From Accumulibacter sp. (lineage in GTDB: Bacteria; Pseudomonadota; Gammaproteobacteria; Burkholderiales; Rhodocyclaceae): a stretch of DNA of 54,210 nucleotides. Made by a program: the position numbers and the translations under genes. The DNA lies in NCBI RefSeq assembly GCF_023806565.1, contig NZ_JAMTDV010000062.1:89298-143507 (forward strand). Direction: 5' to 3'. This document shows positions 50,248-54,210 of this stretch, in pieces. Within the stretch, counting starts at the first letter, position 1; each line of letters opens with the position of its first letter. The notes beneath the pieces were generated by a model, which saw only the letters and a program-made list of their open reading frames with translations, searched no databases and was not told the DNA's origin.

Positions 50248-50775
50248 TTGCTTTCCAATCCGCCCCTGTCCAATCACTCCAATAGCTGGTATGTCTGTTT
50301 CACCAAGCCTCGCCAGGAGGCTCTGGCGAAGCGTAAGCTCGAGGAACAGGGGTACGAGGTCTTCCTTCCGATGCTCACGCAGTGGGAGAGGAAAAAGGAG
50401 GGCTGGGCAAGAAAGCAGCAGGTGATGTTCCCTCGCTACGCTTTCCTGCGTTGTGGTCGCCCCGGGCAAAGCATCGGCCCGGTCCGCAGCACACCCGGGA
50501 TGAGCGGGCTGGTGACCTTCGGCATGATCCCGGCGACGCTCGACGAATCGATCCTGGAAGCGATCCGCGCGCTGGTCGAGCGCCAGGAAAACCGGTCAAA
50601 TGAGGAACTATTTCCTTTCCAGGCCGGCGACAGCGTGGAAATATGCGATGGTCCGCTGAAGGGGATGTCCGGGATCGTTTCCGCCGTCGCCACGGAACGG
50701 GTGACGGTGCTGCTTAGCCTGCTCGGTCGGGAAAAGCCGGTCGCGATACCTCCGGATCAACTGGCCCTGGGGTAG
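50248..50775 (+). CDS. rfaH: RfaH-like transcription antiterminator (NusG paralogue)
   Basis: A 175-aa NusG-family protein of the RfaH type, which boards RNA polymerase at ops sites and carries it through long polysaccharide operons. The NGN domain begins at SWYVCFTKPRQEALAKRKLE and contains the family motifs EQGYEVFLPM and FPRYAFLRCG; a KOW-containing C-terminal domain follows (FQAGDSVEICDGPLKGMSGIV). No ATG or GTG lies near the conserved N-terminus. The TTG at 50248 gives the right length; TTG 50146 (overlapping the previous stop) would add a Ser/Pro-rich stretch and CTG 50266 would shorten it. An exact ops element follows 54 bases after the stop, and another lies before gmd. Confidence 0.85.
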   Translation: MLSNPPLSNHSNSWYVCFTKPRQEALAKRKLEEQGYEVFLPMLTQWERKKEGWARKQQVMFPRYAFLRCGRPGQSIGPVRSTPGMSGLVTFGMIPATLDESILEAIRALVERQENRSNEELFPFQAGDSVEICDGPLKGMSGIVSAVATERVTVLLSLLGREKPVAIPPDQLALG

Positions 50776-50817
50776 GTGTCGTCGGGCTGCATGGCTGAAG
50801 TGCTGAATGCTGTGAGG

Positions 50818-50845
50818 CATTCGGGCATGGCGGTAGCGTGCCCGG
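50818..50845 (+). promoter_or_regulatory. ops element, copy 1 (downstream of rfaH)
   Basis: GGCGGTAGCGTGC at 50829-50841 is identical to the core ops (operon polarity suppressor) sequence recognised by RfaH. It is embedded in a 28-base block identical to copy 2 at 52964-52991, and it is framed by GGGCA...TGCCC, which can form a hairpin presenting the GGTA core in the loop. It lies 130 bases before the Rpn-family gene. Confidence 0.8.
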
Positions 50846-50970
50846 AGAATCGAAGACGAATTCGGCCGGAAGCGCGCCCGAACAGCGCCACGCGCGCAGC
50901 AGGAGACGACTTCGAACGCGGCTCCGACGACTCATAGCCCTTCATTCCGGAACCGCTGCCGCTGCCCCGC

Positions 50971-52014
50971 GTGACCGAAACCGATACCTCTGACAACGTC
51001 GCCGACAGCTACGACAGTCCGTGGAAGGACATGCTCGAACATGCCTTCCCCGAGTTCATGGCCTATTATTTCCCGGCTGCCGACGCAGAGATCGACTGGA
51101 CGCGGGGCCACCAGTTCCGGAACACCGAACTGCGGCAAGTCGTTCGCGACGCCGAACTCGGCAAGCGCTTCGCCGACGCGCTCGTCCAGGTCACGCTGAC
51201 CAATGGGGAAGAACGCTGGATCTACATCCACGTCGAAGTTCAGGGTCAGCGTGATGCCGATTTCGCGCAGCGCATGTTCACCTACAACTACCGGCTCTAC
51301 GACCGCTACGCCTGTCCGATCGCCAGCCTTGCCGTACTCGCCGACGACGACGAAGGCTGGAAGCCCGACCATTTCGGCTTCGAGGTACTCGGCTGCCGCC
51401 ACCACCTGCATTTCCCGATCGACAAGCTCAGCGAGTCTTGCCAAGACCTTGAGAACCTGGACGCCAACCCCAACCCCTTCGCCCTGGTCACAGCCGCGCA
51501 CCGCCGCACCCGGCAGACGCGGCATGACGCCGAAGCCCGTTACCAGGCCAAGCGCAGTCTCGTCCGCCTGCTGTATCGACAGGGCTGGGAGAGACAGCGC
51601 ATCCTCGACCTCTTTGCGGTGCTCGACTGGATGATGCGGCTGCCGGATGCCCTGGAACAGAAGTTGTGGAAAGATATCGAAGCGATGGAAGGAGAAACGC
51701 GAATGCCCTACGTCACCAGTGTCGAACGCCTCGCCACGCAGCGCGGGATGGAGCAAGGCATCCAGCAAGGCATCCAGCAGGGTATCGAGCAAGGCATCGA
51801 GCAAGGCATCGAGCAAGGCATCGAGCAAGGTACGGAGCGAGGCGAGCGGATCGGCGAAGCGAGGGTCGTCGAGCGGTTGCTTGCCCGACGCTTCGGCCCG
51901 CTCAGTGCCGAAACCCGTGCGCGCCTGCAAGCCGCCACACTCGAACAGCTCGACCGCTGGGCCGAGAAGCTTCTCGACGCCGCCACGCTCGATGAAGTCT
52001 TCAACGAAAACTGA
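50971..52014 (+). CDS. Rpn-family (PD-(D/E)XK) nuclease/transposase-like protein with DUF4351
   Basis: A 347-aa protein of the Rpn/YhgA-like group (recombination-promoting nuclease, PDDEXK fold). The N-terminus has the family pattern YDSPWKDMLEHAFPEFMAYYFP and the catalytic region shows FADALVQV...IYIHVEVQGQ near residue 80 (D and E-x-Q). A repetitive helix of eight 4-residue units (GIEQ/GIQQ) near residues 259-290 leads to a C-terminal DUF4351-type ending (RRFGPLSAETRARLQ..WAEKLLDAATLDEVF). The start is GTG at 50971 without a clear ribosome site. It sits between the two ops copies, splitting rfaH from gmd, and looks like accessory or mobile DNA. Confidence 0.85.
   Translation: MTETDTSDNVADSYDSPWKDMLEHAFPEFMAYYFPAADAEIDWTRGHQFRNTELRQVVRDAELGKRFADALVQVTLTNGEERWIYIHVEVQGQRDADFAQRMFTYNYRLYDRYACPIASLAVLADDDEGWKPDHFGFEVLGCRHHLHFPIDKLSESCQDLENLDANPNPFALVTAAHRRTRQTRHDAEARYQAKRSLVRLLYRQGWERQRILDLFAVLDWMMRLPDALEQKLWKDIEAMEGETRMPYVTSVERLATQRGMEQGIQQGIQQGIEQGIEQGIEQGIEQGTERGERIGEARVVERLLARRFGPLSAETRARLQAATLEQLDRWAEKLLDAATLDEVFNEN
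51745..51840 (+). repeat. Eight 12-base tandem repeats inside the Rpn-family gene
   Basis: Eight consecutive 12-base units, best represented by GGCATCGAGCAA, run in frame and encode G-(I/M/T)-(E/Q)-Q units. Three central units are identical, the outer ones diverge. Such repeats change length by slippage without breaking the frame. Confidence 0.9.
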
Positions 52015-52963
52015 ACTTTCCTGACGTCATTTTCGGTGCGGGGGTCAGAGGGACAACCCGCGCAAACGGCCGACAACACCGACCGAGCGGCCTGGCCCAC
52101 GCGAAATCGGTGGGTGCCGAGTGCCACGCCAACTGCCGACGTACCCGCATCGCCGTACACCGTCGGACGGACGCCCTCCTGGGCAAGCAGATTCGCGCCC
52201 GTGAATTTGTCGTCGCCGTTCCGTTCCACCATCTGTACTGGGACAGAATCGCCGACCCCACCCGCCGGCCTTCCTGCCGGGATCAAAGCATGAGACTGAG
52301 CGCAACGGGACATTCCGCAATCCGTGAGCGGAAAAACCTGATCGCTCGGGAATACGCGACGGAAAAAAGGCGCCAGATCCAAAGGGCTGTCGCAGCATTG
52401 TCCCCGATACTCCTGGCGATCGTGCCGAATGTGATTAAAGACGCCGCGATCATCGTCGATAAGTACACAGGATGAGAACCCGTATGGCAGAACGGCGGTC
52501 CGCACGGATCGGAGGACCTCCGAATGGCACTCGCAGCGATGGCAATCCGCTGATCGATGAAGCAGCCAGCGAGGGGGGTGACCGGCGCCCGGCTTTTGCC
52601 GGCCACGGCTGCATTGCCATGCCGACCAGCGGCCGCTGTGCTGATCGGCGAAGCCGAAAGGCGGGGCTGGGCCTGGCGGTTCGGGTGGGCGAGCATCACG
52701 CGTCGCACGGTTGGGGTAGCTCGAATCGCCTCGAAGTGCCGACTCGATAGGCCTTTCGCAGGTATCCCGCGCCGGCCGATCGACTCGGCCGCAGACGGCG
52801 CGGAACTCGCCCGGACGCGGGAACGGGCGGAAAACGTGAAGGAATGCACATCCCGCTGGAGCCCGCGATGAGATCATGCGGGCAGGTCGCGGTGCCGGTG
52901 TTGCGCGCGGTGCTGTACCGACCGCTATTCTACGAGAGCGGATGAGACTGCTGAATGGGAGAA
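52015..52963. other. Gene-poor stretch between the Rpn-family gene and ops copy 2
   Basis: About 950 bases with no gene I can support. Several overlapping frames exist on both strands but lack ribosome sites, have arginine/proline-rich shadow composition and match nothing I recognise. The best small candidate is 52290-52475 (+, 61 codons, MRLSATGHSAIRERKN..), with an alternating charged then hydrophobic profile (AVAALSPILLAIVPNVIKDA) but atypical, A-rich third positions; I rate it below reporting level. The whole stretch could be debris of inserted DNA. Confidence 0.4.
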
Positions 52964-52991
52964 CATTCGGGCATGGCGGTAGCGTGCCCGG
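52964..52991 (+). promoter_or_regulatory. ops element, copy 2 (leader of gmd)
   Basis: GGCGGTAGCGTGC at 52975-52987 exactly repeats the ops core, in the same 28-base block as copy 1. It lies 98 bases before the gmd start, the position expected for an RfaH loading site in a polysaccharide operon leader. Confidence 0.82.
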
Positions 52992-53085
52992 GAGGGTCTG
53001 GCACCTTCGCCCACAGGAGTGAAAGGGCGTGCTGCCAAGTCACACAGCCGGTTCTTGTTGCGAAGACTATGCAAGGGGTTTTCTA

Positions 53086-54210
53086 TTGGAAGCAAATCGG
53101 AAGGTAGCCCTGATCACCGGTGTTACCGGCCAGGACGGAGCCTATCTGGCAGAGCTGCTGCTCGAGAAGGGCTACGAGGTTCACGGCGTCAAGCGCCGGT
53201 CGTCGCTTTTCAACACGGATCGGATCGACCACCTCTATCAGGACCCGCACGAACCCGGGCGGCGTTTCATTCTGCACCACGGCGATCTCACCGACTCGAC
53301 GAATCTCATCCGCATCATCCAGGAAGTGCAGCCGGACGAGATCTACAACCTCGCCGCGCAAAGCCACGTCGCCGTGAGCTTCGAGGAGCCTGAGTACACT
53401 GCCAACGCGGACGGTCTCGGAGCGCTGCGCATGCTCGAGGCAATCCGCATCCTGGGCCTGGAGAAGAAAAGCCGCTTTTACCAGGCGAGCACCTCCGAGC
53501 TCTATGGTCTGGTTCAGGAGATACCCCAGAAGGAAACGACCCCGTTCTATCCGCGCAGCCCGTACGCGGTCGCCAAGCTGTATGCCTACTGGATTACCGT
53601 CAATTACCGCGAGGCGTACGGGATCTACGCTTGCAACGGCATTCTCTTCAATCACGAAAGCCCGGTGCGAGGCGAAACGTTCGTTACCCGCAAGATCACC
53701 CGAGCCATCGCGCGAATCGCGCTGGGCCTGCAGGATTGCCTGTACCTCGGTAATCTGAGTGCCCTGCGCGACTGGGGACACGCCCGGGATTACGTCGAGA
53801 TGCAATGGCTGATGTTGCAGCAGGAGCATCCCGAAGACTTCGTGATTGCCACCGGAGTGCAGTACAGCGTGCGACAGTTCGTCGAATTCGCTGCCGCCGA
53901 ATTGGGGATCAGCGTTGGCTTCGAAGGCGAGGGCGTCAACGAGGTTGCCGTCGTGACCAGGGTCGAGGGCGATCAGGCGAAGGTCAAACCGGGGGCGGTG
54001 ATCGTTCGCGTGGATCCGCGCTACTTCCGCCCGACGGAAGTGGAAACCCTGCTGGGTGATCCGAGCAAGGCTCGCGAAAGACTCGGCTGGAGCCCGACAA
54101 CCAGTCTGCGCGAACTGGTCAGGGAAATGGTACTGGCCGATCACGCGGCGGCGAAGCGCGATGCGCTGGTCAAACTCGCCGGCTTCAAGACCTTCGAACA
54201 TTACGAGTGA
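53086..54210 (+). CDS. gmd: GDP-mannose 4,6-dehydratase
   Basis: A 374-aa extended SDR that converts GDP-mannose to GDP-4-keto-6-deoxymannose, precursor of GDP-fucose, GDP-rhamnose or related sugars for exopolysaccharide or LPS. The Rossmann motif is [16 protein letters not shown] near residue 11; the catalytic region shows [11 protein letters not shown] and [10 protein letters not shown] (Tyr-x3-Lys), and [21 protein letters not shown] is diagnostic for Gmd. TTG at 53086 with AAGGGG seven bases upstream gives the normal length (E. coli Gmd is 373 aa); the frame is open back to 53029 but those codons are not conserved. It probably heads an operon that continues beyond the window and is read under RfaH/ops control. 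Confidence 0.95.

Follow-up and report, generated by a model that had tools for sequence, protein, structure and literature searches.

The 54,210-nt window analysed here (positions 89298-143507 of contig C62 of an Accumulibacter genome) raises the question of whether a gene for an RfaH-like NusG paralog and two exact copies of the ops element, which lie close together near its end, constitute an RfaH-type loading system far from the enterobacteria. The original prediction, made from this DNA alone, had joined the regulator, its site and an exopolysaccharide (EPS) gene into what would be a complete antitermination circuit. The observation itself is confirmed and its interpretation is, overall, partly supported: we consider it probable that the locus belongs to a JUMPstart-like, RfaH-type loading system for surface-polysaccharide operons that is partly linked in cis and repeated. 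An ops system read by a divergent RfaH-type protein is the most likely account, and its mode of working is well supported. Both copies of the 13-base core lie on the + strand, at 50829 and 52975, in identical 28-base blocks as predicted; judged by the gene calls they are intergenic, outside called genes, and stand in sense orientation ahead of putative target genes. The features concerned are the following.

50248..50775, + strand: gene for the RfaH-like NusG paralog (NGN and KOW domains), with a likely TTG start at 50248 in a frame open from 50146
50801..50827, + strand: hairpin of element 1, TGCTGAATGC...GCATTCgGGCA, with a folding z of -4.1 for 50800-50830 and covariation in relatives
50829..50841, + strand: ops copy 1, exact GGCGGTAGCGTGC, 1 nt 3' of the hairpin and 54 nt past the paralog stop
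50818..50845, + strand: identical 28-bp block, copy 1
50971..52014, + strand: Rpn-family (Transposase_31/DUF4351) gene between both ops copies
52949..52973, + strand: hairpin of element 2, TGCTGAATG...CATTCgGGCA, with a folding z of -2.9 for 52945-52976
52975..52987, + strand: ops copy 2, exact GGCGGTAGCGTGC, 98 nt upstream of the likely gmd start
52964..52991, + strand: identical 28-bp block, copy 2
53086..54210, + strand: gmd, GDP-mannose 4,6-dehydratase, with a likely start at about 53086 in a frame open from 53029 (TIGR01472, 586 bits against a cut-off of 415)

The protein was identified through a Pfam NusG match (6e-18), TIGR01955 and matches in the PDB to RfaH and NusG structures, which agrees with the RfaH homologue that had been claimed beside ops; by its sequence it is a divergent RfaH-type NusG paralog. 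Among named records, its nearest orthologs are 62-72% identical and belong to Candidatus Accumulibacter (necessarius, conexus, phosphatis, adjunctus, aalborgensis and others), and the betaproteobacterium-like, Rhodocyclales host that had been proposed fits. Co-occurrence of protein and element was assessed in 28 Accumulibacter genomes, which were searched with the paralog protein and with R1, a covariance model of the element (E<=1e-5); because R1 was built from 27 distinct elements of these same genomes, its matches within the genus are partly there by construction. Strong paralog matches (E below 1e-50) were obtained in 20 of the 28 genomes, the window's own included, the others being 62-74% identical. 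Paralog and element occur together in 18 genomes, the paralog alone in two (G002, G013), the element alone in one (G016, 72% complete) and neither in seven (Fisher p 2e-4, without correction for kinship). The element of G023 is degenerate, with three mismatches in ops, and scoring it as absent changes these counts to 17, 3, 1 and 7 and p to 7e-4. A pattern search for ops with at most one mismatch agrees with this table among the matches listed (22 genomes); with up to three mismatches, matches appear in all 28 genomes and this level is therefore uninformative. In the scan of the family, R1 matches weaker than about E 1e-4 were taken as mostly chance unless they stood beside a paralog. Two Accumulibacter genomes (G019, G026) carry elements on large contigs other than that of the paralog, and there service in trans is therefore likely.

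Place and strand were compared across 688 kb of oriented sequence comprising 47 paralog regions, of which the genus contributed 21 and the rest of the family 26. At one mismatch or fewer, ops is found 44 times in sense and twice in antisense (exact copies, 33 to 0), and all 44 sense copies lie downstream of the paralog, though upstream sequence amounts to only about 60 kb of the total. The first ops follows within 400 nt of the paralog stop in 22 of the 47 regions, namely in 2 of 21 within the genus and in 20 of 26 outside it (61-313 nt), and six further family loci of 1.5 kb each contribute one more, for 21 of 32 outside the genus. Within the genus the remaining sites are spread 1.1-19.3 kb downstream of the paralog, with up to four per region; outside it the fetched regions mostly hold a single copy, directly behind the paralog. 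At the level of the class, a paralog (E<=1e-20) was detected in 64 of 274 genomes, and 23 of the 63 loci besides the window's own present ops at one mismatch or fewer within the few kb read, always in sense (23 versus 0 antisense), 20 downstream and three upstream of the paralog. Sixty-one named loci give a similar picture, with ops downstream in 32 (34 sites) and two further sites elsewhere, the ops-bearing loci including Sulfuritalea, Hydrogenophilales, Rhodospirillales and Desulfobulbaceae records; the region scan and the named-locus scan are not independent, since the same Accumulibacter genomes occur in both. No ops was found in eight housekeeping nusG loci (2.5-3.5 kb). The expectation that the motif would be tied to rfaH-like genes in related genomes is borne out by place and strand. 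The claim that ops occurs here far from the enterobacteria is true as well, but in the wider class, too, 16 of 63 loci have an exact core close to an RfaH-like gene.

Two side observations concern the signal itself. A variant, GGCGGTAGCATGC, accompanied by a different hairpin of the type GTTGAACA...TGTTCAC, stands 80-110 nt past the paralog in three loci (L255, L259 and L260, with the record titles Proteobacteria, Deltaproteobacteria and Desulfobulbaceae bacterium). In genus g21 of the family, all five genomes (G047, G107, G152, G183, G210) encode an RfaH-like paralog and show no ops at one mismatch or fewer in the stretches read, which measured 1.5 kb in three genomes and 16-18 kb in two; these paralogs may use another signal.

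The element extends beyond ops. Its covarying structure consists of TGCTGAATGC...GCATTC(g)GGCA, followed by one base and then by ops. In 22 elements (16 from the genus and six from outside, taken from the 47 distinct elements then available), five of ten pairs changed on both sides, with 19 double-change cells; none of 500 shuffles reached 19, and slid controls fail. Stem swaps outside the genus are compensated, as in GTGCGC/GCGCAC and GTGCAC/GTGCAC. The covariation depends on the six outside elements, which were chosen among 20 distinct ones for stems that align with that of the genus, the remaining 14 having a different stem layout and entering only the pooled test; the genus alone (27 elements, seven pairs of the upstream helix) presents no double changes in this hairpin. 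Pooling 61 non-Accumulibacter elements, distinct and partly related, with a stem end 0-2 nt before ops yielded a mean score of 4.75 versus 3.38 for shuffled sequences (0 of 300), and the score falls as the stem end is shifted away from ops. Single-element stem tests reached p<=0.05 for 16 of 17 elements in the genus and for 3 of 20 outside it, so that outside the genus the pooled test is strong and the single-element tests are weak. The original prediction had placed the hairpin in GGGCA/TGCCC arms around ops. These arms are present in both copies, but as a conserved structure this stem was rejected: no pair changed on both sides, whether three inner pairs were examined on the 27 genus elements or five pairs on the 22 elements, and in 7 of the 22 the outermost bases do not pair. 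The conserved hairpin lies instead just upstream of ops.

From these patterns we infer pausing, binding and antitermination, with the divergent paralog as the reader of ops. RNA polymerase that has moved past the paralog gene, or that is entering an EPS module, would pause at ops when its transcript ends at U11, and the nascent-RNA hairpin would then end 12 nt upstream of the paused 3' end. Twelve nucleotides is the spacing at which pause hairpins stand from the RNA 3' end, and this spacing suggests that the upstream hairpin may act as one. The RfaH-like protein would be recruited via the ops bases that the non-template strand exposes, and would stay on the polymerase and exclude NusG and Rho across long, gap-rich EPS units. 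Because the regulator gene is followed immediately by an ops copy, its own transcript could load the protein in cis; at copies ahead of other EPS modules, which some relatives carry on separate large contigs, the protein would act in trans.

Several results weigh against this reading, beginning with the motif on its own. The window contains seven bare-core matches at two mismatches or fewer versus 3.27 expected, a number reached by 7 of 100 shuffles, and the whole genome (3,714,392 bp) contains 23 core matches at one mismatch or fewer versus 30 for the reversed control pattern. The mismatched bare core is thus unenriched in both, as would be the case if a GC-rich motif, through chance or an assembly duplicate, merely occurred twice near an unrelated NusG paralog; with element, strand and place repeated across many genomes, we regard that explanation as barely credible. 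Significance rests, because of this lack of enrichment, on exact identity, the duplicated block, place and relatives. Three exact 13-mers occur in the genome, two of them the window copies, and the third (C20:8314), which no element surrounds, was dropped; the element covariance model, built partly from the two window copies, finds exactly two places at E<=1e-5. Promoter and terminator scans were uninformative (two promoter-like sites versus 0.8 expected; one terminator-like site versus 3.8). Next, ops does not accompany every paralog: no copy lies within 500 nt in 11 of the 32 non-Accumulibacter loci of the family, one of these (G144) having a copy at 1.8 kb, and in 40 of the 63 class loci the stretch read contains none. 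In addition, by the tests made, paralog and element are outside the curated RfaH and JUMPstart families. The paralog scores about 108 bits (108.3, 108.2) with TIGR01955, the RfaH equivalog model, under its curated cut-off of 144.5. The Rfam JUMPstart model (RF01707) reaches at most 22.6 bits, at four sites in relatives, versus a gathering score of 35, and its search listed no match at E<=10 for either window element (L002, L003). Finally, U11 is the position of the ops pause in E. coli according to a paper (PMC11001881) cited here, like all papers below, from partial text; that text sets the ops pause apart from hairpin-stabilised pauses and has ops and RfaH alone set the E. coli cycle, and a role for the hairpin is therefore put forward tentatively.

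The remaining objections come from the protein. In E. coli RfaH the side chains of K10, H20, R23 and R73 touch ops (Zuber et al. 2018, PMC5995543), and alanine at H20, R73 or T72 strongly reduces ops binding or delay, R23A doing so mildly (PMC2871177). Loss of such residues had been named beforehand as a finding that would count against the prediction, and it was found in part: H20, R23 and R73 are replaced (H20K, R23E, R73P) in all 21 Accumulibacter sequences, and K10 is kept. Nor do contact residues separate the 23 class loci with ops from the 40 without it. In the former, residue 73 is L in ten, I in five and R in five, residue 20 is N in 16, and Q24, T72 and G74 are invariant; the latter are similar, with R at residue 73 in 12 and N at residue 20 in 30. 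The C-terminal domain modelled by AlphaFold2 is a NusG-type beta-barrel (pLDDT 88, pTM 0.61; the pipeline was run without an E. coli control), near NusG and recruited-RfaH structures, and autoinhibition in the style of RfaH is consequently unsupported by the model. E48 is replaced by Q in 20 of the 21 Accumulibacter sequences. The polymerase-binding residues F56 and Y54 are conserved in all 21. Some RfaH orthologs are known to function poorly in E. coli (PMC13015549).

These replacements bear directly on the alternative that the paralog recognises not ops DNA but the RNA hairpin upstream of it, ops serving as a strong pause only. An RNA hairpin is the presumed target of LoaP, and the loss of three of four ops-contact side chains together with a hairpin conserved by covariation would suit a protein of that kind. 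Against it, G5 and T6 of ops are constant while the hairpin sequence varies (in elements selected by their likeness to ops), as expected if a protein reads these bases, and K10, Q24, T72 and G74 are retained in the Accumulibacter sequences. On balance we think a hairpin reader unlikely. The preferred reading, an ops system with a divergent RfaH-type reader, takes the conservation of ops despite the loss of contact residues as pointing to a different way of reading ops, not to absent function.

The closest known system is E. coli RfaH with its JUMPstart (RF01707, waaQ), which shares the exact ops 13-mer, a hairpin ending 1 nt before it, a NusG-paralog partner and polysaccharide genes downstream. 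The waaQ JUMPstart presents a 5-bp stem, 1 nt and then ops, and scores 55.2 bits with RF01707. Here, by comparison, the hairpin sequence is different (below the Rfam gathering score), the regulator gene is linked to the site in many relatives, there are several copies per EPS cluster, and the paralog lacks H20, R23 and R73 and has a predicted barrel C-terminal domain. In the available text, JUMPstart is listed for gamma-proteobacteria with a conserved stem-loop (Weinberg et al. 2010, PMC2864571). Like UpxY, TaA and LoaP, the cis-encoded NusG paralogs of polysaccharide or antibiotic operons, the regulator stands in or beside its presumed target cluster, but no ops use is stated for them in the available portions of PMC7593976 and PMC7819879, whereas ops is exact here, and some Accumulibacter copies are on large contigs other than that of the paralog. 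Genes of the RfaH-like clusters CL2-CL8 likewise adjoin glycosyltransferase or epimerase genes (Wang et al. 2020, PMC7593976); the present loci offer a candidate loading site. The same source, as far as available, describes recruitment in detail for E. coli RfaH only, and has K10 preceding the rise of RfaH and R73 arriving later. No report of ops in betaproteobacteria or Accumulibacter was found in a literature search that was incomplete, most subscription journals being outside it.

A wider interpretation, to which we give slightly less than an even chance, is that hairpin and ops form an old polymerase-directed loading signal of RfaH-type paralogs across Pseudomonadota and beyond, one that is older than the mode of recognition used in E. 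coli and has been multiplied in Accumulibacter EPS clusters with co-oriented Rpn genes. As ops keeps its every letter although H20, R23 and R73 drift, specificity would then rest on K10, Q24, the T72-G74 turn and the paused complex, with the RNA hairpin at the 12-nt pause spacing. Exact ops sites are tied here to paralogs that keep K10 and lack R73 and H20, and with both site and protein named, target finding by other RfaH-like proteins becomes directly testable; the covarying hairpin likewise gives the JUMPstart structure a testable role. The findings point to a widespread switch for making sugar coats, even though this paralog lacks most of the residues with which E. coli RfaH reads ops. Accumulibacter is a main organism of phosphorus-removing sludge, where control of EPS is of practical interest.

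The tested genes downstream of ops are mostly polysaccharide or Rpn-family genes, the types found being gmd, other epimerase-family genes, UDP-glucose dehydrogenase, ABC transporter, NeuB and carbamoyltransferase. Contig C62 ends at position 143507, the last base of the gmd stop, and some related contigs end less than 1 kb from an ops site (G003:C37, G015:C16, G001:C53), so that the remainder of these EPS clusters is unseen. Ten chosen frames in all from three family genomes place an ABC transporter, epimerases and a C-methyltransferase (G028), a cytidylyltransferase, aminotransferase, carbamoyltransferase and methyltransferase (G095), and NeuB and UDP-GlcNAc 2-epimerase (G137) behind ops.

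Rpn-type genes are a recurrent neighbour. The genus has 114 DUF4351 matches, 109 of them above the family cut-off, and 35 of the 114 fall no more than 5 kb from one of the 37 elements considered, without exception in the same orientation, where about 0.3% would be expected from the genome fraction. Conversely, a DUF4351 gene is present at this distance for 29 of the 37 elements, neighbouring copies not being independent; two weak matches, G007:C53 and G023:C22, are degenerate elements with three core mismatches and were excluded from this count. The window's own genome has only two DUF4351 matches, one of them between both ops copies. The association may belong to ops or to EPS clusters generally. 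It would be accommodated if the element were mainly a recombination joint, a conserved block before EPS modules at which modules are swapped or duplicated with Rpn nuclease genes nearby, its likeness to ops being inherited from JUMPstart and its use in elongation secondary. Three of the four ops copies in G020 do lie in recent duplications, whose repeats match over 311-346 bp to the left and 86-91 bp to the right of the core start. The copies in the other five genomes compared, however, share the short element only, the single copies directly behind the paralog outside the genus do not suit a joint, and such a site would need neither compensatory hairpin changes nor near-fixed spacing; we therefore judge this explanation quite improbable, and a loading site remains the preferred reading.

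One arrangement was read from ten chosen frames of G006, one of them without a Pfam match. Its order is paralog, gmd, an Epimerase (Pfam) gene that we take to be fcl-like, a beta-CASP protein, ops, two Rpn-type genes, ops, an Rpn-type gene, a DUF3368 protein, ops, an epimerase and UDP-glucose dehydrogenase. Between two of the ops sites of this genome (L088, 14353-14432) there is also a group II intron-like match, which scores 36.3 versus an Rfam gathering score of 40.

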